Below are positions 46,411 to 59,398 of a stretch of DNA of 64,000 nucleotides, in pieces (positions within the stretch are counted from its first letter, which is position 1; each line of letters begins with the position of its first letter). The notes under the pieces were generated by a model. It did no database searches. It saw only the letters and a list, made by a program, of their open reading frames with translations, and was not told the DNA's origin. The position numbers and the translations under genes are program-made. This stretch comes from Rhodococcus sp. 105337 (GTDB lineage: Bacteria; Actinomycetota; Actinomycetes; Mycobacteriales; Mycobacteriaceae). Location: assembly GCF_012844225.1 (NCBI RefSeq), contig NZ_JABAGQ010000004.1, forward strand, positions 186,001 to 250,000, written 5' to 3'.

Positions 46411-49400
46411 TCAGACCCGGCGGAACGACGACGTGAACCGCGACAGTCGCCCTTCACTCGGCAACACCTCTTCGACCATGAAGGTCACGGTCTGATCGAT
46501 TCGTTCGAGAGACTGGAGCACACGGGACAACGTGCTGTCGTGCGGGATGTCGTACTCGTCGGTGGCCTGCATGTCCTCCTGCACCGCGGAGGGCGTCTCC
46601 CCTGCCAGCGCTTTCAGCAGGGCCTCGAAGTTGTCCTCACCGATATCCTGGATCGCGCCCCACTGCGAGTCGGTCAGGACGTTCTCGTCGGCCGAGAGAC
46701 GCTCGGTGGCGGACACCAGATGCCGCGTGTAGAACAACAGAGCCCACAGTGCGGTGAGCCGCCCTTCGATCCCCCGGACATCGAGCGCCCCGGAAGAACG
46801 GCGCAGCGGGACGGCGGTGGCCTCGACCTTCTGGACCAGCGTGGTCAGCGCGAGTTCCCGGCGTGCGAGTTCCTGCCTGTCCAGGGTCCCCGTGGATCCG
46901 GACCGCAGGTGTGCGAGACAGATGCCGGTGACGTCCTGGACGGTCCGCACCAACTGAGACGTGTCCGACGACAAGCGGGTGCGGGTACGGGTGGGCAGAA
47001 CGACCGCGGCGACCACCAGCGCGAGCCCCGCTCCGATCACCGTCTCCACGACACGCAGTTCGATGGTTTCGGTATCCAGTCTTCCCAGCAGGTCGTAGAG
47101 CAACGCGACGAACGCCGTGATCCAGAGCGCCGACAGGACGGACGACACAGGACGGAAGTACGTCGACGCCAAGATGCACAGGGCCAGCAGCGGGAGGACC
47201 ACGGGAGTGTCGGTCCCGACCACGATCGCGAAGCCGAACCCGATCGCGGCTCCGGCCACGGTTCCGACGATGCGCTGCATCCCCTTGAGAAACGTCTCCC
47301 CGTCCGTCTCACCCAGTACAAAGAACGCCGGCAGCGCGGCCCAATACTGGTAGGTCTCCGATACGGACCCTCCGATCCAGAGGGCCAGCCCGGTCGCGAG
47401 TGCGGCCTGCACCGCGCGTCGGATCGGCCCGGCGTTCGTGCCGGCCGGCGCGCGTCCTCCGCTCGGAGCGGAGGACGATTCCTGCTCACCCGCAGCAGAT
47501 CCCGCTCCGACCGCGGAAGTCGAGCCTGCACCATCGGTGTCGCCGGGGCTGCCGATGAGGTCTTCGGGGCGGGCGGTATGCAACGCGTCCACAGCAAACC
47601 GGAGTTCGCGCACGGCATGATGCAACCGCTGCGCCGGCAGAGGCCAGTCGATGGGATCGGGCACGTCGTCGGGTGGACGGATCGCGTCGTTCTCGTCTCC
47701 GGAATCGCCCATCCACGCCGGAAGGTCCGGATAACTACGAATGTGGAGCTGGAGCTGTTCGAGTTCGCCGGCGAGCCGAGCCCGGACCGGGATGGGCATG
47801 CCCGACCCGGTCGCATCCCGAGCCGCCGCAGACAGATTGACCGTTGCGAGCTCGACATCGAAGAGACGTATTCGCAGGTTGTTCTGCTGCTCTGCGGAGA
47901 AGTGCAGGGCCGGGTCCTGTTTGGTGAGCTGACCTCCCAGAAAGGACGCGGTGTGGTGGAGTTGGTCGAGTCCGCTGTGCATACGTTTGCGCAGATCCGG
48001 ATCCCACCGGGCTGCCGACACCGTATCGACGAGGGGATCGATGCTGTGCGCAACACTGTTCTCGAACGCCCGGACGCCGCTCCGTACGAGCCCGACGTGT
48101 CCGTGACCGAGCGGAATGAACTGAACGAGTACCGACGCGGTGACGCTCACCAGCCCCGTCAGTGCGTACAGCCAGAAATCGTCAGGGCTCAGCCGAAGCA
48201 GCAGGCTGAAGTAGAACGTCATGAACAACACGCGGCCGAGCCCGGCCCCTTGTGGTCCGAACCGGGACAGCAACACACCCACGAAGGCGAGGGCGGCGAC
48301 GGCGAGCACCGACGGCAACCGTTCGCGTGGAACCAGGGTGATCAAACCGACCGCGACGACCACGGGGACGAGCGTCAGCATCCCGCCGAACTTGGCGAGT
48401 CCCGGGCGCGCACCGCTTTGCGCCGCAACCCCGCCCGCGAACATCGCGATCATTCCGCCGAAGATGGCCGTGGGCATCGGGGCTTTCCCTGCGAGTTCGA
48501 GGCCGATCGCCACCACCGCCACCGAGACCACCGCCGCGATGAGCACGCGCAAGGACCCGAATAGCCGGATGTAGCCGGGATCGATGAGCGTGAACCGGTT
48601 GGCGAAGAAGGCTCGTACGCCGCCGGTGGCGGGCTTCCGGGTTCCCGGAGCAGTGGTTTCCGGAACATCCGCCCAGCCGGGCGCGTACACCGGCTGATAA
48701 TCGAGGTCCCGGCCGACCGCATCGGTGAACTGTTGCGCCCGGTACGCGAACGGCAGCCACTCGACGTACCGTTCGTAGGCCTCGTCGAGATCGGTGAGTG
48801 GTTCGAGGTGAACGAGTTCGCCCATCTTCCGATTCACCCGGGCGAACCGGGCAACCCACGGATCCTCGCTCTCGACAGGAGGCGCCGAGCGATGTCCGTC
48901 CGTCCGGTGCAGCTCGATGTCCTCCCCGATCAGCCGGCGGAACTCCCCACGCGACCTCGTCTCGGGAACATCGGTGCTCGTCCACCCGAGCAGAGGATGC
49001 ATGTAGTCCGCGAACTTCAGGAACTGGTCGGTGAGCGGAAGCAGCATCGGCTCGACAGTCACCGGGTGGGATCTGGGCAACCCCCACCGAAGTGCCCCGA
49101 CGACCCCGCTCAGCATCCGGATCGAATACGGCAGCGAGAACGTGTCGCGGCCGCTCTGGAAGTAGTAGGCGGAGTGGTGCAGCCGGACACCGTCGGTGTA
49201 GCTGCTGAAACTGTCGGCGATGGACGAGAGTTTGGAGTCGAGGTCGCGCGATTCGCCGCCCGGGAAGTACGGCTTCAGGCTCGCGACCGGGTCGCCGACG
49301 CTGTTTCCGGGATTGTAGAACTGCGCGGACAGACCGCGCAGGGCGCTGATCACTCCGTAGACCCCGAGAAGAAACGTGAGAATCAGGAAGACGAGCACGA

Positions 49401-49827
49401 CACCGGTGAGAGTCTCCAGGACCGAGATGATCCGGGATACATCGGTGTCGGGAACGACTTGGGACGTGCCCACCGTGGAGAGCTGGGCTGTACTGAAATA
49501 AATTGCGCCGAAGGCATCGTCGGTGCCGCCGTTGTACAGGAAGTCTTGCTCCCTCATCATGCCGACGTAGATGAAGGCGTATCCCAGGATCGTGCCGCCC
49601 ACCCACATGCCCACCGTGACGATGAGCTGAATGCCCGTGACCTGACGGAGTACGGCGGGTCGCCGTCCGCGTGACATCTTTCGCGTCACTCGTCTGATGA
49701 CACGCCAGACCCACGACGTCACAGCGCGCGTGAGAAAGCCTGCGTCGTCGTAATTGAGGGCGGTGAGGAATACATCCAGCAGCGTCAACCCAAGGATGAT
49801 GATCCCGAGCCACTGGACAGCGTCCAC
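46411..49827 (-). CDS. Large membrane protein: channel-like pore domain fused to two FUSC-type modules
   Basis: A 1138-residue membrane protein with an unusual architecture. Residues 1-165 look like a two-helix potassium-channel pore: helix near 66-90, a pore helix FGAIYFSTAQL and a filter-like TVGTS at 118-122 in place of the classical TVGYG, then a second helix near 140-163. Residues ~425-615 form a first FUSC-type membrane block (RVLIAAVVSVAVVAIGLELA and more), ~620-800 are soluble and helical with an Ala/Gly/Ser linker, ~815-985 are a second membrane block with YQYWAALPAFFVLGETDGET and RIVGTVAGAAIGFGFAI, and a soluble helical end follows. FUSC proteins include aromatic acid and antimicrobial exporters. 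Substrate unknown. Probably leaderless: TAGACT lies 6 bp before the GTG. Confidence 0.8.
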   Translation of the reverse strand: MDAVQWLGIIILGLTLLDVFLTALNYDDAGFLTRAVTSWVWRVIRRVTRKMSRGRRPAVLRQVTGIQLIVTVGMWVGGTILGYAFIYVGMMREQDFLYNGGTDDAFGAIYFSTAQLSTVGTSQVVPDTDVSRIISVLETLTGVVLVFLILTFLLGVYGVISALRGLSAQFYNPGNSVGDPVASLKPYFPGGESRDLDSKLSSIADSFSSYTDGVRLHHSAYYFQSGRDTFSLPYSIRMLSGVVGALRWGLPRSHPVTVEPMLLPLTDQFLKFADYMHPLLGWTSTDVPETRSRGEFRRLIGEDIELHRTDGHRSAPPVESEDPWVARFARVNRKMGELVHLEPLTDLDEAYERYVEWLPFAYRAQQFTDAVGRDLDYQPVYAPGWADVPETTAPGTRKPATGGVRAFFANRFTLIDPGYIRLFGSLRVLIAAVVSVAVVAIGLELAGKAPMPTAIFGGMIAMFAGGVAAQSGARPGLAKFGGMLTLVPVVVAVGLITLVPRERLPSVLAVAALAFVGVLLSRFGPQGAGLGRVLFMTFYFSLLLRLSPDDFWLYALTGLVSVTASVLVQFIPLGHGHVGLVRSGVRAFENSVAHSIDPLVDTVSAARWDPDLRKRMHSGLDQLHHTASFLGGQLTKQDPALHFSAEQQNNLRIRLFDVELATVNLSAAARDATGSGMPIPVRARLAGELEQLQLHIRSYPDLPAWMGDSGDENDAIRPPDDVPDPIDWPLPAQRLHHAVRELRFAVDALHTARPEDLIGSPGDTDGAGSTSAVGAGSAAGEQESSSAPSGGRAPAGTNAGPIRRAVQAALATGLALWIGGSVSETYQYWAALPAFFVLGETDGETFLKGMQRIVGTVAGAAIGFGFAIVVGTDTPVVLPLLALCILASTYFRPVSSVLSALWITAFVALLYDLLGRLDTETIELRVVETVIGAGLALVVAAVVLPTRTRTRLSSDTSQLVRTVQDVTGICLAHLRSGSTGTLDRQELARRELALTTLVQKVEATAVPLRRSSGALDVRGIEGRLTALWALLFYTRHLVSATERLSADENVLTDSQWGAIQDIGEDNFEALLKALAGETPSAVQEDMQATDEYDIPHDSTLSRVLQSLERIDQTVTFMVEEVLPSEGRLSRFTSSFRRV

Positions 49828-50220: not shown

Positions 50221-51849
50221 ATGACCTCTACGACCTTGTCCCAAGACGTGATCAACACCGGTGACACCGCGTGGGTGCTGGTGTGCGCAGCCCTTGTGCT
50301 GTTCATGACACCGGGCCTGGCGTTCTTCTATGCCGGCATGGTGAGCAAGCGCAACACCCTCGTGATGTTGCAGCAGAATCTGATCGGGCTCGGCATCATC
50401 TCGCTCACCTGGTTCGCCTTCGGGTACAGCATCGCGTTCGGTAACGACCGAGGTAACGGGATCGTCGCCGATCTCGGATTCGTCGCACTCACCAACATCG
50501 ACGACGCCCCCAAGCCGGACCTCCACGTGGTGACCGAAACCGTGGCGATCCCGACGCTGGCGTTCTTCGCGTATCAGTTGATGTTCGCGATCATCACCCC
50601 GGCGCTGGCCACCGGCGCAGTGGCCAATCGCCTCAAGGCCTTCGGGTGGGCAGTGTTCATCGCCATCTGGTCGGTGATCGTGTACGCACCCGTCGCGCAC
50701 TGGTTGTGGGCCCCCACGGGATGGTTGACCAAGATGGGAGCGCAGGACTGGGCAGGTGGAATGGTTGTCCACGCGTCGGCGGGGGCTGCCGCACTCGGTC
50801 TGTTGATCGTCCTCGGGCGGCGCAAGGTGCGGCCCAACCGGGCACCACTGCCGCACTCGGTCCCGTTGGTGATCGTGGGAGCGGGAATACTCTGGTTCGG
50901 CTGGTTCGGTTTCAACGCCGGTGACGGACTGCAGGCCAACGGAGTTGCCGCGCAGGCGTTGGTCAACACCCAGTTGGCGGGTGCCACTGCGATGCTTGTC
51001 TGGCTGGTGTTCGAGCGGTACCGGGAAGGCCATTCGACCGTGCTCGGAGCCGTGACCGGCGCGGTCGCCGGATTGGCGACCATCACCCCCGCCGCAGGTT
51101 ATGTCAGCAGCTGGGCCGCGGTAGTCATCGGCGCCCTCGCCGGAGTTGTCTGCTACCTGGCCCTCGGCCTGAAACGGCTTCTGCGCGTGGACGATGCGCT
51201 CGACGTGCTGGCGGTCCACTTCATCGGCGGCGTGTTCGGCACCCTGTGCGTCGGGCTCTTCGGGGAAGAAGCCATCAACGCGATCGGCCGAGACGGTCTG
51301 TTCCACGGTGGCGGATTGACGCTGCTCGGATATCAAGTCGTCGCACTGGCCTCGGTGATCGCCTACGCGTTGGTGCTCACGCTGGTGATCGCCTTCGCGA
51401 TCGACAAGACGATCGGACTGCGCGTCAGTGCCGAGGAAGAAGAACACCTCGACCTCAGCCAGCAAGGGATGAGCGCGTACCACGAGGGTCCCACTCCCCC
51501 CGATCCCACGGCCGACGGGGCAACGGTTTCCGCGGCTCCGAAGCCGTTGGAGCCCGGGAACACGCTGTACCTGGTCACCGCCGTTCTCGACTCGGGCGGG
51601 GCCGCGGGCGTGGAACGGGAAGTGCTCGCCGCAGGTGCCCGCCGCGCGATGTTGTCCGAGGTATTCGTCACGACGGCTTCGTCGGTCGACCAGATGGTCC
51701 GAGGACAGAAACGAACCATGGATGTCACCCCACGGGTCCGCGCGGAAATCCTGACCCCTGCGGAGTCGCTGACCAGCGTGCGAAGCGCCCTGTCGGCGTT
51801 GGGCGACGACCTCGTCGAAATGACCGTCGTGCCGGTCGAGAGCGGATAG
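50221..51849 (+). CDS. amt: Ammonium transporter with C-terminal PII-like domain
   Basis: Residues 1-~405 are an Amt/Rh ammonium channel with eleven predicted helices: FYAGMVSKRNTLVMLQQN, the signature DWAGGMVVHASAGAAALGLL with the first pore histidine, and LDVLAVHFIGGVFGTL with the second. A 45-residue acidic/Pro linker follows, then residues ~448-542 resemble a PII signalling protein: LYLVTAVLDSGG, LSEVFVTT and VRGQKRTMDVTPRVRAEILTP align with the PII core and T-loop. The PII tyrosine that is uridylylated or adenylylated is replaced by Arg, and the C-terminal nucleotide-binding loop is missing. PII proteins normally plug Amt as separate trimers; here the regulator seems built in. A terminator hairpin follows. 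Confidence 0.88.
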   Translation: MTSTTLSQDVINTGDTAWVLVCAALVLFMTPGLAFFYAGMVSKRNTLVMLQQNLIGLGIISLTWFAFGYSIAFGNDRGNGIVADLGFVALTNIDDAPKPDLHVVTETVAIPTLAFFAYQLMFAIITPALATGAVANRLKAFGWAVFIAIWSVIVYAPVAHWLWAPTGWLTKMGAQDWAGGMVVHASAGAAALGLLIVLGRRKVRPNRAPLPHSVPLVIVGAGILWFGWFGFNAGDGLQANGVAAQALVNTQLAGATAMLVWLVFERYREGHSTVLGAVTGAVAGLATITPAAGYVSSWAAVVIGALAGVVCYLALGLKRLLRVDDALDVLAVHFIGGVFGTLCVGLFGEEAINAIGRDGLFHGGGLTLLGYQVVALASVIAYALVLTLVIAFAIDKTIGLRVSAEEEEHLDLSQQGMSAYHEGPTPPDPTADGATVSAAPKPLEPGNTLYLVTAVLDSGGAAGVEREVLAAGARRAMLSEVFVTTASSVDQMVRGQKRTMDVTPRVRAEILTPAESLTSVRSALSALGDDLVEMTVVPVESG

Positions 51850-51896: not shown

Positions 51897-52545
51897 TTAT
51901 CGATGTCACGACCGGATTCGGCGATGATGTGTCCGCCGTCGAAGAACCACGACGCTGGTACGGAAATCCGGTCGGCCGCAATTCTGGACCTCGAGAAATA
52001 TGTCCGGGCTTGCCGTTACCCGATACGGCGACCCGACCGCCGGCGGTCCACGCGCAATTCACCGACTCTCGCTCGACTCCGAAACTGAACGCACGACAAA
52101 GAATTGCGATCCGTCCGTTTCGGGCTTTTGTTCCGTCCGGAAATTGTGCAGCCGATTCGCACCACCGAGTCGACCATTCTTCGGATCGGCCGAAATGCAG
52201 TCTTCCACGGATCCGGCACACGAAGCCTTTCGTTCCCCGGTGGAGGGTCGGAGCAGCAGACGCACGTCACTACAGCGTCGGGCGCCACGTATGCAGGCTG
52301 AACGACTGCACATATGAATAGATATTCAATTCACGGACGACGACAACGACCGCTGTTCCTATATCTGGAGGTTCGCCGGGTGTTGCCGCGCTTATCGGTC
52401 TCGGCGTCGGCGCTGCCCGCGTCCGATGAAAAAACCAAAGGCCGAACTTCATTGCGGATCCGGCGTATCGTCCGAGACAGCGAGCTCCGGCTCGTCGCCG
52501 GGAGATGCTCATCGAATCGGAACCTACGGCATTGCGGGAGCAGAA
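51897..52545. promoter_or_regulatory. Long low-GC intergenic region before the urease operon
   Basis: About 650 bp with no supported gene. Sample lines are near 53% G+C, well below the flanking coding DNA. Open frames on both strands lack motifs and ribosome-binding sites. A 14-bp palindrome TGAATA-GA-TATTCA at 52315-52328 is a candidate operator. ATG of ureA is preceded by GGGAG. Confidence 0.45.
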
Positions 52546-52851
52546 ATGGATTTGACTCCACGAGAAATCGAAAAGCTTTACGTGTACCAGGTTGCAGAAC
52601 TTGCACGCCGACGACGCGAACGGGGCACGAAGCTCAACGCCAGCGAGGCAACCGCGCTCATCAGCGAGGCGATCCTGGAAGGCGCTCGCGACGGACGCTC
52701 CGTTGCGGAAGTGATGGAGCTGGGAAGAACGATCGTCGCGGAGAAGGACTGCATGGGAGGCGTGCGGGAACGCCTGCCGCTCCTGCAGGTCGAAGCGACG
52801 TTCGTCGATGGGAGCAAGCTGGTCTCCTGCCACGACCCGATCGGGAACTGA
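52546..52851 (+). CDS. ureA: Urease gamma subunit
   Basis: Smallest structural subunit of nickel urease (101 aa). It begins [20 protein letters not shown] and contains [21 protein letters not shown] and VPxxL-type middle replaced by [21 protein letters not shown], all typical. The frame is open 40 codons further upstream, but the ATG with GGGAG at the conserved terminus is right. The stop is 1 bp before the next gene, so the CbiX-like protein is translated from the same message. Confidence 0.96.
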
Positions 52852-52852
52852 C

Positions 52853-53749
52853 GTGGCCGAACCCGCCGGGAAAGACGCCACCACGATTCTGGTCGCGGGC
52901 CACGAAAGCGCCGAGGGCGCGGACGTGCGATACCTCGAACAGGCTCGCAACCGGTGGTTCGTCACCCCGATCGGCCGGCCGCTCCACAATCTGCTCACCC
53001 GCCATCTGGCGTCCGGAGACGGCCCGATCGTGGTCGTTCCCATGACGATGGGGCGTAATCCGACCTTGGTGGCCGACACCGCCAAGACGGTGCGGTGGCT
53101 GGCAGCGAGTGCGCCGGAACGTCTCGCGCTGGCGGCGCCGTTCGGCAGCCCCGACCATCTGATCTCGTGGCTGCGCCTGGCGGCCACGGGTATTCGGAGC
53201 CGCTCGTCCGACGCCGCGATGGTGATCCAGGCCCCTTCCTCCGACCCTTTCGACGAGGCGGAACTGCACCGCGTCGCGCACCTCGTGCGCACCCACGGAG
53301 CAGGCAACGTAGTGGAGGTTGCCACGACACACACCGACGACGATCTTGTCGACGTTCTGCAACGGCTGCGACGGCTCGGCAACCCGCACGCCGTAGTCGT
53401 TCCGGCAGGCTTTCGCCGGGAGTCCCCTGTTCCTTTGGACGACAGCAGGTTTACCGGCTGTGAGTTCTACGGACCGTTGATGAGCGAACAGGCAGCGATC
53501 CGCATCATCGATGCGCGCATCCGCGACGCAGTGCACGAACTCGCCCACGGCCGTACCGGAGTCGAGTCCGGCCTGATGGCGGACCACGGCCACGGCTACG
53601 CCCATTCGCACGCTTTCGACGACTCGCCGGACAGCGCGCACGGCCACGGACACGGACACGGACACGAGCACGCAGATCGGAGCCGTCCCGGCGACGATCC
53701 CGGCACCGAACACAGCCACCGACACCCCGCTACCGCGTCTTCACACTGA
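52853..53749 (+). CDS. CbiX/SirB-like chelatase-family protein with histidine-rich tail
   Basis: A 298-residue protein between ureA and ureB. Residues ~10-240 resemble the CbiX/SirB/CfbA chelatase fold in two half-domains: [13 protein letters not shown] (His17 in the place of the first metal histidine), [20 protein letters not shown] and [14 protein letters not shown] in the first, [20 protein letters not shown] and [13 protein letters not shown] in the second. The second metal-site histidine of the family appears lost. Residues 242-298 are a tail with 14 histidines, including [11 protein letters not shown]. The urease cluster lacks ureE, whose products often end in such a tail, so a nickel-storage or nickel-delivery role is inferred. 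The GTG start is 1 bp past ureA. Chelatase activity on a tetrapyrrole is the alternative. Confidence 0.75.
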
Positions 53750-53810: not shown

Positions 53811-54236
53811 ATGGTAGCCAAGCCCACATACGACCACAGCGAAGCCGACATCGAGATCAACGCGGGGCGGCGCAGCGTCACCCTGCAGGTGAGCAACACC
53901 GGAGATCGTGCAATCCAGATCGGGTCCCATTTCCATTTCTTCGAGGTCAATAAGGCGCTGCTGTTCGATCGTGAACTCGCCTACGGAATGCACCTGGATC
54001 TGCCTTCCGGGCTGGGGGTGCGCGTCGAGGCCGGCGACACCCGTGAGGTGACCCTCGTCGCGTACGCCGGCAACCGCCACGTCATCGGCTTCAACAACCT
54101 CGTCGACGGCGGTCTGGACTCCGAGGGCACAAAGATCCGTGCCATGGCGCTCATGAAGGAACTCGAGTACCAGGACGGCACACCCAAGGCGCGAGAGAGC
54201 TCGAGCACCTCGAAGAAGAAGAAGGGCGCAAAGTAA
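53811..54236 (+). CDS. ureB: Urease beta subunit with C-terminal extension
   Basis: Structural beta subunit (141 aa). The core has [40 protein letters not shown] and [16 protein letters not shown]. Usual beta subunits are about 100-110 residues; here ~38 extra residues end in a Ser/Lys stretch ([11 protein letters not shown]). AAGGAA lies 6 bp before the ATG. The stop overlaps the ureC ATG (TAATG). Confidence 0.95.
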
Positions 54237-55960
54237 TGGCAATCATCTCGCGCAAGCAGTACACGGACCTCTTCGGACCCACGACGGGTGACCGAGTCAC
54301 CCTCGCCGACACGAACCTCGTCATCGAGATCGAAAAAGACTTCAACGAGGGCAACTACGGCGACGAGATCGTCTACGGCGGCGGCAAGACGGCGCGCGAC
54401 GGAATGGGTGCCGACCCCCAGGGAACCGATGCCCAGGGAGTGCTGGACCTCGTCATCACGAACGCGATCATCCTCGATCCGGTGCTCGGCGTCCTCAAGG
54501 GCGATATCGGAGTACGGGACGGAAAGATCGCCGGTGTCGGCAAATCCGGCAACCCGCATCTTCAGAAGGGCGTCGATCCCCGACTCGTCGTCGGGCCGGG
54601 TACCGAACTCCTCGCCGGTGAACATTGCATCGCGACGGCGGGCGGCTTCGACTCCCACGTGCACTACATTTCCCCGCAACAGGGGGTGACGGCCCTGGCG
54701 AACGGAATCACCACCTTGTTCGGTGGCGGCACCGGACCGACGGACGGCACCAACGGTGTCACCACCACCCCCGGCGTCTGGAACCTCCACCGGATGCTCG
54801 AATCCGCCGAAGCCATGCCGGTCAACATGGGCTTCCTCGGAAAGGGGAACGGATCCCTGCCGGAGGCGCTCTGTGAGCAGATCGAAGCCGGCGCGGCAGG
54901 TCTGAAGGTGCACGAGGACTACGGCGCCACACCCGCCGCGATCAGCAACGCACTCGACGTCGCCGACCGCTACGACATCCAGATCTCCGTACACACCGAC
55001 ACCCTCAACGAGTCGGGCTTCGTCGAGAACACTCTGGATGCGATCGACGGCCGGACGATCCACACGTTCCACAGCGAGGGCGCCGGCGGCGGACACGCAC
55101 CCGACCTCATCAAGGTCACGGGTCACCCGAACGTGCTGCCGTCCTCCACCAACCCGACGCTCCCCTACACGGCCAATTCGGTGGATGAACTGCTCGACAT
55201 GGTGATGGTGTGCCACCACCTGTCGCACGACATCCCGGAAGACGTCGCATTTGCGGACTCCCGCGTGCGTGCCGAGACGATCTCCGCCGAAACGGTGTTC
55301 CACGACGAAGGCATCATCTCGATGGTGTCCTCCGATTCACAGGCCATGGGCCGTATCGGCGAGTCCTTCATGCGTGCGTTCCAGATCGCACACCACTGCA
55401 AGGACAAGCGCGGCAAGCTGCCGGAGGACTCACCGGACAACGACAACTTCCGCGTGCTGCGCTACCTGGCGAAAATCACCATCAACCCCGCGATCACCCA
55501 GGGCGTCTCGGACTACATCGGGTCGCTCGAAGAAGGGAAGATGGCCGACATCGTGCTGTGGCCGACGACGTCGTTCGCCGCCAAGCCCAAGGTGATCGTC
55601 AAAGGCGGCCTGATCAACTGGGGTCTGATGGGTGAACCGAACGCGTCGCTGCCCACGCCGCAGCCGGTGTACTACCGCCCGATGTTCGGTGCGCAGGGCA
55701 GGGCATTGCAGTCCACGAGAGCCACGTTCATGTCGAAGGCGGCGATCGCGAACGGTGTGCCCGAAAAGCTGGGGCTGGAGAGTCAGGTGCTGCCGGTGAA
55801 GAGGTGCCGCAACATCGGAAAGCAGCACATGGTGCGCAACACCGCCACCCCGGTCGTCGAAGTCGATCCCGAGACCTACGACGTCACGTACGACGGAAAA
55901 CCGGCGGCGATCGATCCTGCGCAGACCCTCCCGCTCACGCAGATGTTCTTCCTGGCCTGA
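54236..55960 (+). CDS. ureC: Urease alpha subunit, catalytic
   Basis: Catalytic subunit (574 aa) holding the two nickel ions. Ligands are visible: His141 and His143 (FDSHVHY), the carbamylated Lys224 ([10 protein letters not shown]), His253 (SVHTDTL), His279 ([16 protein letters not shown]) and Asp367 ([12 protein letters not shown]). The flap region has Cys326 and His327 ([15 protein letters not shown]). All essential residues are present, so an active urease is expected. HVHYISPQQ replaces the commoner HIHFICPQQ. Confidence 0.98.
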
Positions 55961-55969
55961 GGTGACACG

Positions 55970-56662
55970 GTGACGTCCGATATTCGCCAGTTGCTGACGA
56001 GTCTGCAGTTCTCGGACTCGGCGTTCCCGAGCGGCTTCTACACCATGTCGCACGGACTGGAGGGTTACAGTCAGGCCCGCCTCGTCGACCCCGGTGAGGT
56101 GCAGGACCTGTTGTGTTCGTTGCTCGTCCACACGGTCGGGCCCGGGGACGCGACAGCCCTCGCCGCCGCACATCGGGCGGCGGGGGCGGGTGACTGGGAG
56201 CTCGTCGAGGAAATCGATCACCGCCTGTTCGCGTCCAAGTTGAATGCCGAGATGCGACGGGCGTCCGTACGCAGCGGTCACCAGCTCGCGGACCTTGCCG
56301 ACGTGGTGCTCGGCAGCGACGCGCTGGACGAGTACCAACGGCGAGTGAAGGCGCGGGCCACGCCGGGATGCCAGCCGGTGGTGTCCGCTCTCATCTACTC
56401 GGCGACCGGCGTCGGAACGGGCATCGCGGTGGCCTCCGATCTCTCCGCATTCGCGGTGAGTTTCGTGGGCGCCGCGCTGCGCCTCCGGCTGGCCGATCAC
56501 CGGCAGGCGCAGGTGATTCTGCACGCCGTCGGCCCGGTGATCGAGCAGGTGGCACACGACGCCGCCGAACGTGACGTGCACGATCTCGGAGGCTTCGCAC
56601 CGATGGCCGACATCATGTCCGCACAGCACGAACGGGCCGAGGCGCGCCTGTTCGCCAGTTGA
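55970..56662 (+). CDS. ureF: Urease accessory protein UreF
   Basis: A 230-residue helical accessory protein that works with UreG and UreD/H to load nickel into urease. Family features are LQFSDSAFPSGFYTMSHGLEGY at the start and ASDLSAFAVSFVGAALRL. The start GTG lies 9 bp after the ureC stop, following GAGGTGACACG. Its product bridges UreG to the UreD-apourease complex. Confidence 0.95.
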   Translation: MTSDIRQLLTSLQFSDSAFPSGFYTMSHGLEGYSQARLVDPGEVQDLLCSLLVHTVGPGDATALAAAHRAAGAGDWELVEEIDHRLFASKLNAEMRRASVRSGHQLADLADVVLGSDALDEYQRRVKARATPGCQPVVSALIYSATGVGTGIAVASDLSAFAVSFVGAALRLRLADHRQAQVILHAVGPVIEQVAHDAAERDVHDLGGFAPMADIMSAQHERAEARLFAS

Positions 56663-56728: not shown

Positions 56729-57361
56729 ATGGGTGACAACGCATTGAGGATCGGTATCGGGGGACCGGTGGGATCGGGGAAGACGGCACTGACCGAAGCG
56801 CTTGTGCCCCTGCTCATCGCAGCCGGACGCACTCCGGGTGTCATCACGAACGACATCTATACCCAGGAGGACGCGCAGCACGTCCGGCGCGAACTCGACG
56901 GGGTGCTCGACCCCGAACGGGTGGTGGGCGTCGAGACCGGCGCGTGCCCGCACACGGCCGTGCGCGACGACCCGACGATGAATCTCGCCGTCGGAGAGGA
57001 ATTGCTGCAGCGATTCCCGGATATCGACACGCTGATCTACGAATCCGGTGGGGACAATCTCACTCTCACGTTCTCGCCCTCGCTGGCCGACGTCTTCGTG
57101 TTCGTCCTCGACACGGCGGAAGGCGAGAAGATGCCGCGTAAGCGGGGTCCGGGCATCACCGACAGCGACATCCTGGTGATCAACAAGATCGACATCGCAC
57201 AGTATGTCCGGACGGATCTCGGCGTGATGGAGAGTGACGCCATCCGGGTACGCGATGGCGCCCCCGTCGTCCTCACCAACTCGCTCACCGGCGAAGGCCT
57301 GGACGTGCTCCTCGACCAGATCTTGTCGTTGTGGAACGGCGCACGGACCGAACTCGTCTGA
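56729..57361 (+). CDS. ureG: Urease accessory GTPase UreG
   Basis: SIMIBI-class GTPase (210 aa) that carries and delivers nickel. P-loop GPVGSGKT at residues 12-19, the nickel motif Cys-Pro-His at 73-75 (GACPHTAVRDD), ESGGDNLTLTFSPSLAD and the base-specific NKIDIAQYV are intact. GAGGGGAACG precedes the ATG. The stop overlaps the ureD ATG by one base (TGATG). Confidence 0.97.
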   Translation: MGDNALRIGIGGPVGSGKTALTEALVPLLIAAGRTPGVITNDIYTQEDAQHVRRELDGVLDPERVVGVETGACPHTAVRDDPTMNLAVGEELLQRFPDIDTLIYESGGDNLTLTFSPSLADVFVFVLDTAEGEKMPRKRGPGITDSDILVINKIDIAQYVRTDLGVMESDAIRVRDGAPVVLTNSLTGEGLDVLLDQILSLWNGARTELV

Positions 57362-58422
57362 TGACGGCCGACATCTCGACGGGCAGGGACCTCGATCCCG
57401 GGGCGGATCCGAACGCGCCCCGGGGCTTGGCACCCGTGAGCCCATTACCCGTCCGCCCGGTGCACCCCGGTGGATATCGGCTCCAGCCGGACTACTTCGA
57501 GCCCGTCCGGGTGCCGGCCGAGGTACTCCGGTATGCGGGTGGTGACTCGCCTCTCCCGGTCGGGAGCCCGGGCAAGGTCGGTATCCTCCAACTCGGTTTC
57601 GAGCACAACCAGGACCGGGACCGCACCGAACTCGTGCAGCACTATCAGAAGTCACCGCTGCAGATCATGCGCCCGCTGTACTTCGATCCGTTGCGCCCCG
57701 ATGTTCCGTACACGTACGTGATGTCCTCGGGCGGCGGCATTCTCCAGGCGGACCGGTTGCGCACCGATCTCACATTCGGGACAGGCACCTCGGCACATGT
57801 GACGACGCAGGCGCAAACCAGGGTGTATCGGATGGACTACGACTACGCGTCGTCCGTCACGAACATCTCGGTGGGGGCCGGTGCGTACACCGAGTACCTG
57901 CCCGAACCCGTGGTTCCGTTCGCCGGATCGCGCTTCTACCAGCACACCTCGGTGACGCTCGACGAATCGGCCACGCTCCTTCTCGGGGAGACCGTGTATG
58001 CCGGACGGCTCGCCCGCGACGAGCGCCACAGGTACGAGGTCTACGCGTCCGACGTCGAAGTCCGGCGGCCCGGCGGTCGTCTCGTGGCACTCGACCGGGT
58101 CCGGCTGTGTCCCGGCGAGGATCACGATTCCGCCGCAGCACCGAGTCTCGGCGTCCTGGCCGACCACGACATCCTCGCGATGTTGTACGTGTTCACTCCG
58201 CTGGTGCCGGTCGCCGTGCTCGCGGATCTGCTCCACGACGCGCTGGCCGCCACTCTGCCGGACGGCTTGTTCGGTGTGAGTGCGCTGCCGAACGACGCCG
58301 GCGTCTGGATGCGCTTGGTCGCCAACGATCCTGTCACGGTGGCCCGCGCCACTCACGCGGCGGCGGGAGCGGCTCACGAAGCACTCACGGGGTTCGCCGC
58401 TCCGGCGATCCGCAAGATGTAG
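57361..58422 (+). CDS. ureD: Urease accessory protein UreD/UreH, N-terminally extended
   Basis: Scaffold that binds apo-urease and recruits UreF and UreG (353 aa). The conserved core begins near residue 70: GKVGILQLGFEHNQDRDRTE, then YQKSPLQIMRPLYFDP, SSGGGILQADRLRTDLTFG and TTQAQTRVYRM. The first ~70 residues (Pro/Gly-rich, HPGGYRLQPDYFEP) are an extension not found in ordinary ~270-residue UreD. Along with the long UreB this suggests an uncommon urease lineage. Confidence 0.92.
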   Translation: MTADISTGRDLDPGADPNAPRGLAPVSPLPVRPVHPGGYRLQPDYFEPVRVPAEVLRYAGGDSPLPVGSPGKVGILQLGFEHNQDRDRTELVQHYQKSPLQIMRPLYFDPLRPDVPYTYVMSSGGGILQADRLRTDLTFGTGTSAHVTTQAQTRVYRMDYDYASSVTNISVGAGAYTEYLPEPVVPFAGSRFYQHTSVTLDESATLLLGETVYAGRLARDERHRYEVYASDVEVRRPGGRLVALDRVRLCPGEDHDSAAAPSLGVLADHDILAMLYVFTPLVPVAVLADLLHDALAATLPDGLFGVSALPNDAGVWMRLVANDPVTVARATHAAAGAAHEALTGFAAPAIRKM

Positions 58423-58474: not shown

Positions 58475-59398
58475 ATGACTACGGGAACTGCACCGCAGGA
58501 TTCCATGGCCTCACCGCGCTCCTGGCTGGTGGGGTTCGGCCACGGTCCGTCACAGATCTATTTCCAGGCGAACATCTACACCTCGCTGCTCATCATGGTG
58601 GCCTTCGTCGTCGCCAGCTGGCAGATGGCAGTGCTGGTGGCGATCGGCTGTGTGGCACAAACCTTTACCGGGTGGGTCATCCGCACGAAAGCGTCCGACC
58701 TGATCTTCGGTATGCAAGGTTTCTCCGGGGCCCTGGTCGGCGCTGCGACCTTTGCCACCCTCGGCAGCCAGTGGTTCTCGTACCCCATCGCACTCGTCGG
58801 CGGGGCGCTTGCCGCACCGGTCACGTGGCTGGTCAATGCACTGTTCATGCGGACACCGCTGAAGATCTACGGACTCCCGTCGACGACGGCACCGTTCTGC
58901 ATCGTGGCGACGATCATCCATTTCGGTTTCGAACGCTGGTGGGTCGAATCGTCGTCGATGACCATCGACTCGACCACGGTGGCGTTCTTCCGGTCGTTGC
59001 TGACCAACGTCTCGGAAGTGGTTCTGGTCGACAATGTCTGGGCCGGTGCCCTCATCCTCATCGGCCTGTTCATTGCGAATTGGAAGGTCGGTCTGGCGGG
59101 TTTGCTCGGTAGTGTCGTCGGCACGCTGTGTGCCCTCGCACTGGGCGAGAGCCTCACCGAGACAGGAAACGGTCTGAGCGGGTATTCCGGTGTGCTCACC
59201 GCGATCGCGCTCTCCGTGACCTTCTTGAAGGAGAGTGTTGTCTCCTGGGTCCTCGCGCTGATCGGCACCGTCGTCACCGCAGTCGTCACCCTGTGGATGC
59301 ACGACCTCGGGGTTCCCACCTACACGTGGCCGTACATTCTCACCACGTGGGTGTTCCTGGTGATCGCGCACTACATTCCCTCTGCCGAGCGTCCCTGA
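58475..59398 (+). CDS. Urea transporter, UT family
   Basis: A 307-residue integral membrane protein of the eukaryote-like urea transporter (UT) family. It shows [18 protein letters not shown] near the start, a filter motif [15 protein letters not shown], and around ten hydrophobic segments. It gives passive urea entry and is a natural supplier for the urease encoded just upstream. The ATG has AAGGAG 7 bp upstream and lies 52 bp past ureD. Confidence 0.92.

Follow-up and report, generated by a model that had tools for sequence, protein, structure and literature searches.

How is nickel delivered to a urease whose gene cluster encodes neither UreE nor a histidine-rich UreG? The route of nickel to urease without UreE has so far been answered only in part. 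A rule stated in 2009 holds that organisms lacking UreE have a histidine stretch on UreG (PMC2770081), and this stretch has been proposed to offset the missing protein (PMC2770081, PMC10100864). Two bacterial exceptions to the rule, Frankia sp. CcI3 and Bradyrhizobium japonicum USDA 110, were recorded at that time, with HypB being tentatively proposed as the substitute (PMC2770081). Some UreEs themselves bear a metal-binding histidine tail; that of Klebsiella aerogenes UreE is dispensable for urease maturation (PMC7055735), and the presence of a histidine tail is thus no proof of a donor site.

The window analysed here (a stretch of DNA of 64,000 nucleotides) contains a urease cluster of this kind with an additional gene, termed X in the following, that encodes a CbiX/SirB-like protein with a histidine-rich tail. 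The original prediction, made from the window sequence, was that this protein could be a nickel metallochaperone that takes the place of UreE. A literature search that included the available parts of PMC2667541, PMC4531530 and PMC7689651, with subscription papers mostly outside its scope, found no link between CbiX and a urease cluster.

Gene X and the urease cluster

X adjoins ureA upstream and ureB downstream in a ureABCFGD cluster without ureE. The genes of this region are the following.

50221–51849, plus strand: ammonium transporter gene (Amt), upstream of the urease genes (PF00909, E = 1e-113)
52546–52851, plus strand: ureA, urease gamma (PF00547, E = 4e-39); the frame could begin at 52426, and the PF00547 match corresponds to residues 41–139 of that longer frame
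52853–53749, plus strand: X, CbiX/SirB-like protein with a histidine-rich tail, 298 residues
53811–54236, plus strand: ureB, urease beta (PF00699, E = 2.5e-39)
54236–55960, plus strand: ureC, urease alpha (TIGR01792, above cut-off)
55970–56662, plus strand: ureF (PF01730, E = 1.3e-31)
56729–57361, plus strand: ureG, with no histidine extension at the N- or C-terminal end (TIGR00101, above cut-off)
57331–58422, plus strand: ureD, its start overlapping ureG (PF01774, E = 8e-50)
58475–59398, plus strand: urea transporter gene, downstream (PF03253, E = 6e-58)

The X frame is open throughout and starts with a GTG codon 1 base past the ureA stop; an in-frame ATG at 52808, within ureA, is an alternative start. 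Comparison with two orthologues from the same genus (L013 and L014) gave whole-gene dN/dS values of 0.24 and 0.22, respectively, which indicate that the predicted frame between ureA and ureB is a genuine gene maintained by purifying selection. The corresponding values for the tail alone are 0.37 and 0.10. A 1138-codon frame on the minus strand near the ammonium transporter gene (46411–49827) appears by eye to encode a membrane protein whose beginning resembles an ion channel.

Relationship to CbiX-type chelatases

The window protein alone matches the CbiX family PF01903 weakly (E = 0.013, 16.2 bits, with a cut-off of 22) and has no CbiX match in NCBIfam. An alignment of 30 X proteins (A3) was prepared from the 34 X loci described below, leaving out the fragment L171 and loci L170, L172 and L177; its comparison with ten ordinary CbiX proteins by hhalign gave 99.2% over 214 columns that span both lobes. 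Within this set, 22 of the 30 proteins match PF01903 at E = 0.1 or better (best 8e-7), and two show a weak match to the NCBIfam sirohydrochlorin nickelochelatase (best E = 0.024). As judged from these profile comparisons, the X family is a remote two-lobed relative of the CbiX/SirB chelatases, in agreement with the predicted kinship.

The structure models of X are of low confidence, with a mean pLDDT of 50.3 for the full-length model and 57.7 for the trimmed one. Foldseek ranked SirB first for both models, with E values of about 3e-3 and none reaching 0.001; the fold-match lists contain many unrelated proteins besides chelatases, in one list from rank 2. A second structure aligner gave Z scores of up to 7.9 for ∼95 residues of one lobe, a range that the aligner's own note describes as possibly just a common arrangement. 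Sequence searches of the PDB returned three weak matches to proteins of another kind for the window protein (E of about 0.03), SirB (6jv6; E = 0.52) and the unrelated RuvA (E = 0.82) for the A1 query, and no match at E = 1 for the A3 query. X shares its superfamily with CfbA and SirB and, from the models, may also have a similar fold. The class II cobalt chelatase CbiX-L of Bacillus megaterium likewise has two CbiX lobes and a long histidine-rich C-terminal region, for which a role in storing and delivering metal has been suggested (PMC7689651); one difference is that X sits in urease clusters.

The metal ligands of SirB are His10, Glu43 and His76, with equivalent residues in CfbA (PMC11301274), and other members of the chelatase group keep a histidine pair in the C lobe (PMC7689651). 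The regions of X that are relevant to this comparison and to its tail are as follows.

52898–52906, plus strand: GHE, residues 16–18, with His17 aligned to the first chelatase histidine
53039–53062, plus strand: PMTMGRNP, residues 63–70 (PMTxGRDP in the family), at the region of the second chelatase histidine
53576–53746, plus strand: histidine-rich tail, residues 242–298, with 14 histidines in 57 residues
53600–53611, plus strand: AHSH, residues 250–253, forming the tail's conserved HxH core

The first chelatase histidine is found in 18 of the 30 X proteins, the other 12 having Ala, Pro or Tyr there, and the second histidine of the SirB/CfbA metal site is absent from all 30. In the C lobe, no X protein has a histidine at residues 124–133 and at most one has a histidine at each of residues 182–195. 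CbiX-L has the catalytic residues His14 and His79 and a 4Fe–4S centre (PMC7689651), whereas X lacks the second histidine and, in 30 of 30 proteins, a CxxC motif of the 4Fe–4S type. With the chelatase histidine pair gone, X is probably not a chelatase, and the analogy to CfbA-type chemistry is not supported. The family has conserved features of its own. Its invariant residues include Glu18 and Arg68 (each in 30 of 30), Arg42, Arg108 and Leu138, and two motifs, PMTxGRDP (the strongest) and DAELFRxARLVRQ, are widely kept.

It could be argued from the homology to CbiX/SirB, and from the PF01903 and nickelochelatase matches, that X is a working chelatase which makes a metallo-tetrapyrrole and resides in the urease operon owing to a shared metal supply or regulation. 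The residue losses in both lobes and the missing CxxC speak against this reading, which we consider highly improbable. Furthermore, the genome of the window contains two more two-lobed CbiX genes on another contig, both with the usual histidine motifs, so that X is not required for its tetrapyrrole chemistry.

Histidine-rich tail

The count of 14 histidines in the last 57 residues, noted in the original prediction, was confirmed. Against the background of eight neighbouring proteins (60 histidines in 2468 residues) the binomial probability of such a tail is 7e-11, or about 9e-6 after multiplication by the 128,000 six-frame positions. All 30 X proteins have an HxH sequence within their last 70 residues and 7–27 histidines within their last 60; the AHSH core is present in 26 of them, beside a variable HGHGH run. 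A few members (L019, L139 and L167–L169) have a second histidine-rich run at the N-terminus. In one small-genome genus (L138, L139 and L174–L176) X lacks the histidine of the GHE motif, and most of these proteins have long histidine tails; the N-terminal run of L139 is also long.

A tail of this type might instead belong to a nickel buffer or store that affords protection from surplus nickel and supplies urease by an indirect route, with UreG obtaining its nickel elsewhere. Small histidine-rich proteins of gastric Helicobacter reportedly act in nickel storage and buffering. The low complexity and variable length of the X tail would suit such a role, the histidine tail of HypB has been described as serving storage or buffering (PMC7055735) and the histidine region of CbiX-L has been described as serving storage (PMC7689651). 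However, a tail alone would require neither two conserved lobes nor their invariant residues. We regard storage as the main rival to a donor function and as unlikely.

Distribution and linkage to urease

When the window protein was compared with 101 related genomes, matches were found in 11, of which ten lie directly behind ureA; the eleventh (G079) is an ordinary CbiX. A search with an 11-member alignment, in which only strong matches were counted, found X in 27 of 301 genomes at the level of the family, 3 of 397 for the order, 4 of 345 for the class and 2 of 396 for the phylum, these samples being overlapping and each including the genome of the window. None of the urease-linked matches is weaker than E = 4e-26. 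With a cut-off of E = 1e-10, a further 21 weaker CbiX-type matches (E values of 1e-10 to 1e-18) came from the searches of the order and the phylum, and none of the 21 adjoins ureA; a pattern search of 15 of them found the usual CbiX histidine motifs in 11. Loci L122, L127 and L131 encode ordinary actinobacterial CbiX proteins with a histidine-rich end after an MNCDxC motif.

A total of 34 X loci were gathered and urease genes adjoin X in every one of them, with UreE missing from the X clusters, as the predicted association would have it. The gene order ureA-X-ureB-ureC-ureF-ureG-ureD is present in 31 of the 32 loci with a readable ureG, the exception being the rearranged locus of Actinomadura sp. 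KC216 (X-ureB-ureF-ureG-ureD, followed by ureA and ureC). X is also carried by plasmids of Streptomyces sp. NBC_01237 and Embleya sp. NBC_00896. In the latter (L188, 6935–7819) X is followed by ureB, and no ureA was found in front; this is perhaps a decaying cluster. A second ureA-X piece in G1115 (L171, 3324–3950) is truncated by its position at the end of a contig and accompanies the full cluster of that genome. A contig search with the single window protein yielded at least one locus, and a search of viral contigs for X yielded none.

The location of X between the genes of two structural subunits, together with invariant lobe residues that suggest a binding surface, raises the alternative of a structural or regulatory partner of urease, such as an assembly factor or a metal sensor, in which the histidine tail merely tunes the activity.

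UreE, histidine-rich UreG and X

The cluster in the window does lack ureE, as stated in the original prediction, and a search of the whole genome with UreE_C (PF05194) gave no match. The reading that this absence is unusual in itself was rejected: UreE_C was found in 4 of the 101 related genomes, compared with urease gamma in 66. The search detected UreE_C in one of three control genomes with urease gamma, which sets a limit to calls of UreE absence. Doing without UreE is the norm among these relatives, since their UreG as a rule bears a histidine-rich extension. The odd point is that the X clusters are also without a histidine extension on UreG.

Histidines were counted in the N- and C-terminal extensions of UreG in 98 urease clusters with a readable ureG. 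Extensions with at least three histidines are present in 50 of the 51 clusters that have neither UreE nor X, in none of the 15 UreE clusters and in none of the 32 X clusters; these pooled counts are not frequencies, as X or UreE itself served as the query that led to the X clusters and to some of the UreE clusters. The results for other thresholds are listed below in the same order.

At least one histidine: 51/51 with neither, 8/15 with UreE, 6/32 with X (the contrast fades)
At least two: 50/51, 1/15, 1/32
At least four: 39/51, 0/15, 0/32
At least five: 27/51, 0/15, 0/32

The sample of 101 genomes, which was not chosen by X and is less biased (69 clusters in 66 genomes, with 65 clusters assessed), gave 49/50, 0/5 and 0/10 at the threshold of three. 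The lone cluster with neither UreE nor X and fewer than three histidines in the UreG extension is L105. Loci L091, L092, L110, L111, L112, L171 and L188 were set aside owing to the lack of a readable ureG, L091 and L092 being from genomes whose ureG was counted elsewhere (L108 and L109); G072, in which the ureG match starts at a contig end, is outside the count. Ten of the 15 UreE clusters are from the searched genomes and five from plasmids of other phyla. Our own iterated profile, and not PF05194, was the sole basis for counting L057 as UreE-bearing; UreE of G052 was found by our own profile and not by PF05194.

The position of the extension on UreG varies. An N-terminal histidine extension in every UreE-less cluster was considered and rejected, as it is found in 36 of 51, with most of the others being C-terminal. 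A C-terminal histidine tail (for example, PMAPHFHADDDHGHGHGH) is present in 15 clusters, including those of eight other species of the window's genus (L082–L086, L095, L096 and L099), and an N-terminal extension with at least three histidines, often MPPHLIDGEPHSH-like, is present in 35 other clusters. The eight congeners with a tailed UreG indicate that closely related bacteria use different solutions.

UreE resembles X in being encoded in the urease cluster alongside a UreG without a histidine extension. The two differ in position: among the scored genes, ureE directly follows ureC in 11 of the 15 UreE clusters, whereas X is located between ureA and ureB. PF05194 is not among the four Pfam families listed for the 30 X proteins (E = 0.1), and the NCBIfam UreE match of one member (E = 5e-4) is most likely to be due to its histidine tail. 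In the histidine-rich UreG described from mycobacteria, streptomycetes, plants and fungi the histidine stretch is fused to the GTPase, whereas in X it is located on a separate protein of another superfamily.

The exclusion pattern lends indirect support to X as a candidate urease nickel metallochaperone. A buffer or store would provide no reason for the exclusion of both UreE and histidine-rich UreG at the level of the cluster. A structural or regulatory partner would leave unexplained why X is present where both are missing, and we judge this alternative to be improbable, more so than storage.

UreC phylogeny

A careful UreC tree was calculated from 80 rows after the removal of five long or incomplete rows and 14 near-duplicates. 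The X clusters form one clade (100/99), the sister clade of which bears UreE (the two together, 100/99), and the clusters with neither UreE nor X form another (100/100). A quick tree of 99 rows contains the same X clade with the same sister. UreE clusters branch on both sides and a single UreE clade was rejected (p-AU = 0.006), which is consistent with two separate losses of UreE. In this tree, the rooting of which is not established and which contains long branches, two losses of UreE offer the simplest account, one line having a histidine-rich UreG and the other having X. Since X is a single clade, about one evolutionary event on its side underlies the exclusion with respect to histidine-rich UreG.

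A UreE_C gene is also present in seven of the 30 X genomes tested, in each case in a separate urease cluster. In five of these genomes (G026, G034, G1116, G1136 and G1171) the UreE cluster that accompanies the X cluster is of the sister type, and in the other two (G1115 and G1152) it belongs to another branch. X is thus not always the sole possible nickel donor, and the predicted substitution for UreE, which is favoured by the linkage to urease and by the exclusion pattern, is qualified to this extent.

Proposed function

We consider it likely, with a probability of roughly two in three, that X serves as the dedicated nickel donor of this urease lineage in the place of UreE. We infer that X binds nickel, docks and transfers the metal in the following manner. 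Ni(II) would be captured by the tail, through its AHSH core and a variable HGHGH stretch. The folded lobes would contact the maturation machinery, either UreG or UreF/UreD, and X would pass the nickel to UreG, which would insert it by hydrolysing GTP, in the manner of other systems. X would in this way fill the slot that is occupied by UreE in related clusters and by the histidine-rich extension of UreG in others.

X would have descended from a two-lobed CbiX-type chelatase, the architecture of which was kept while the metal site was lost, and the ancestor may have been an actinobacterial CbiX with a histidine-rich tail. We lean, somewhat less firmly than for the donor function itself, towards a history in which a tetrapyrrole chelatase became a protein metallochaperone in one actinobacterial urease lineage, losing its insertion site, keeping or gaining a histidine tail and taking over nickel delivery from UreE. 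X would be a protein family that is new to a known role and not a new kind of process.

As a gene linked to urease, X is a candidate for the exceptions that have neither UreE nor a histidine-rich UreG. If the donor function is correct, X would be a third solution besides these two, may account for organisms that have been recorded since 2009 with neither of them, such as Frankia sp. CcI3, and would show clearly how a chelatase fold can be redeployed to carry metal from one protein to another.

A further gene is found in the slot between ureA and ureB on a Thermus thermophilus plasmid (L189, 3016–3645). It encodes a NicO-like permease (E = 8e-6; 25.8 bits, slightly under the Pfam cut-off of 27.7), and only a short UreE-like frame follows ureC at this locus. 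As a single case, a permease in this slot fits nickel handling and parallels the position of X, the NicO-like protein being a membrane transporter and X a soluble chelatase-like protein.
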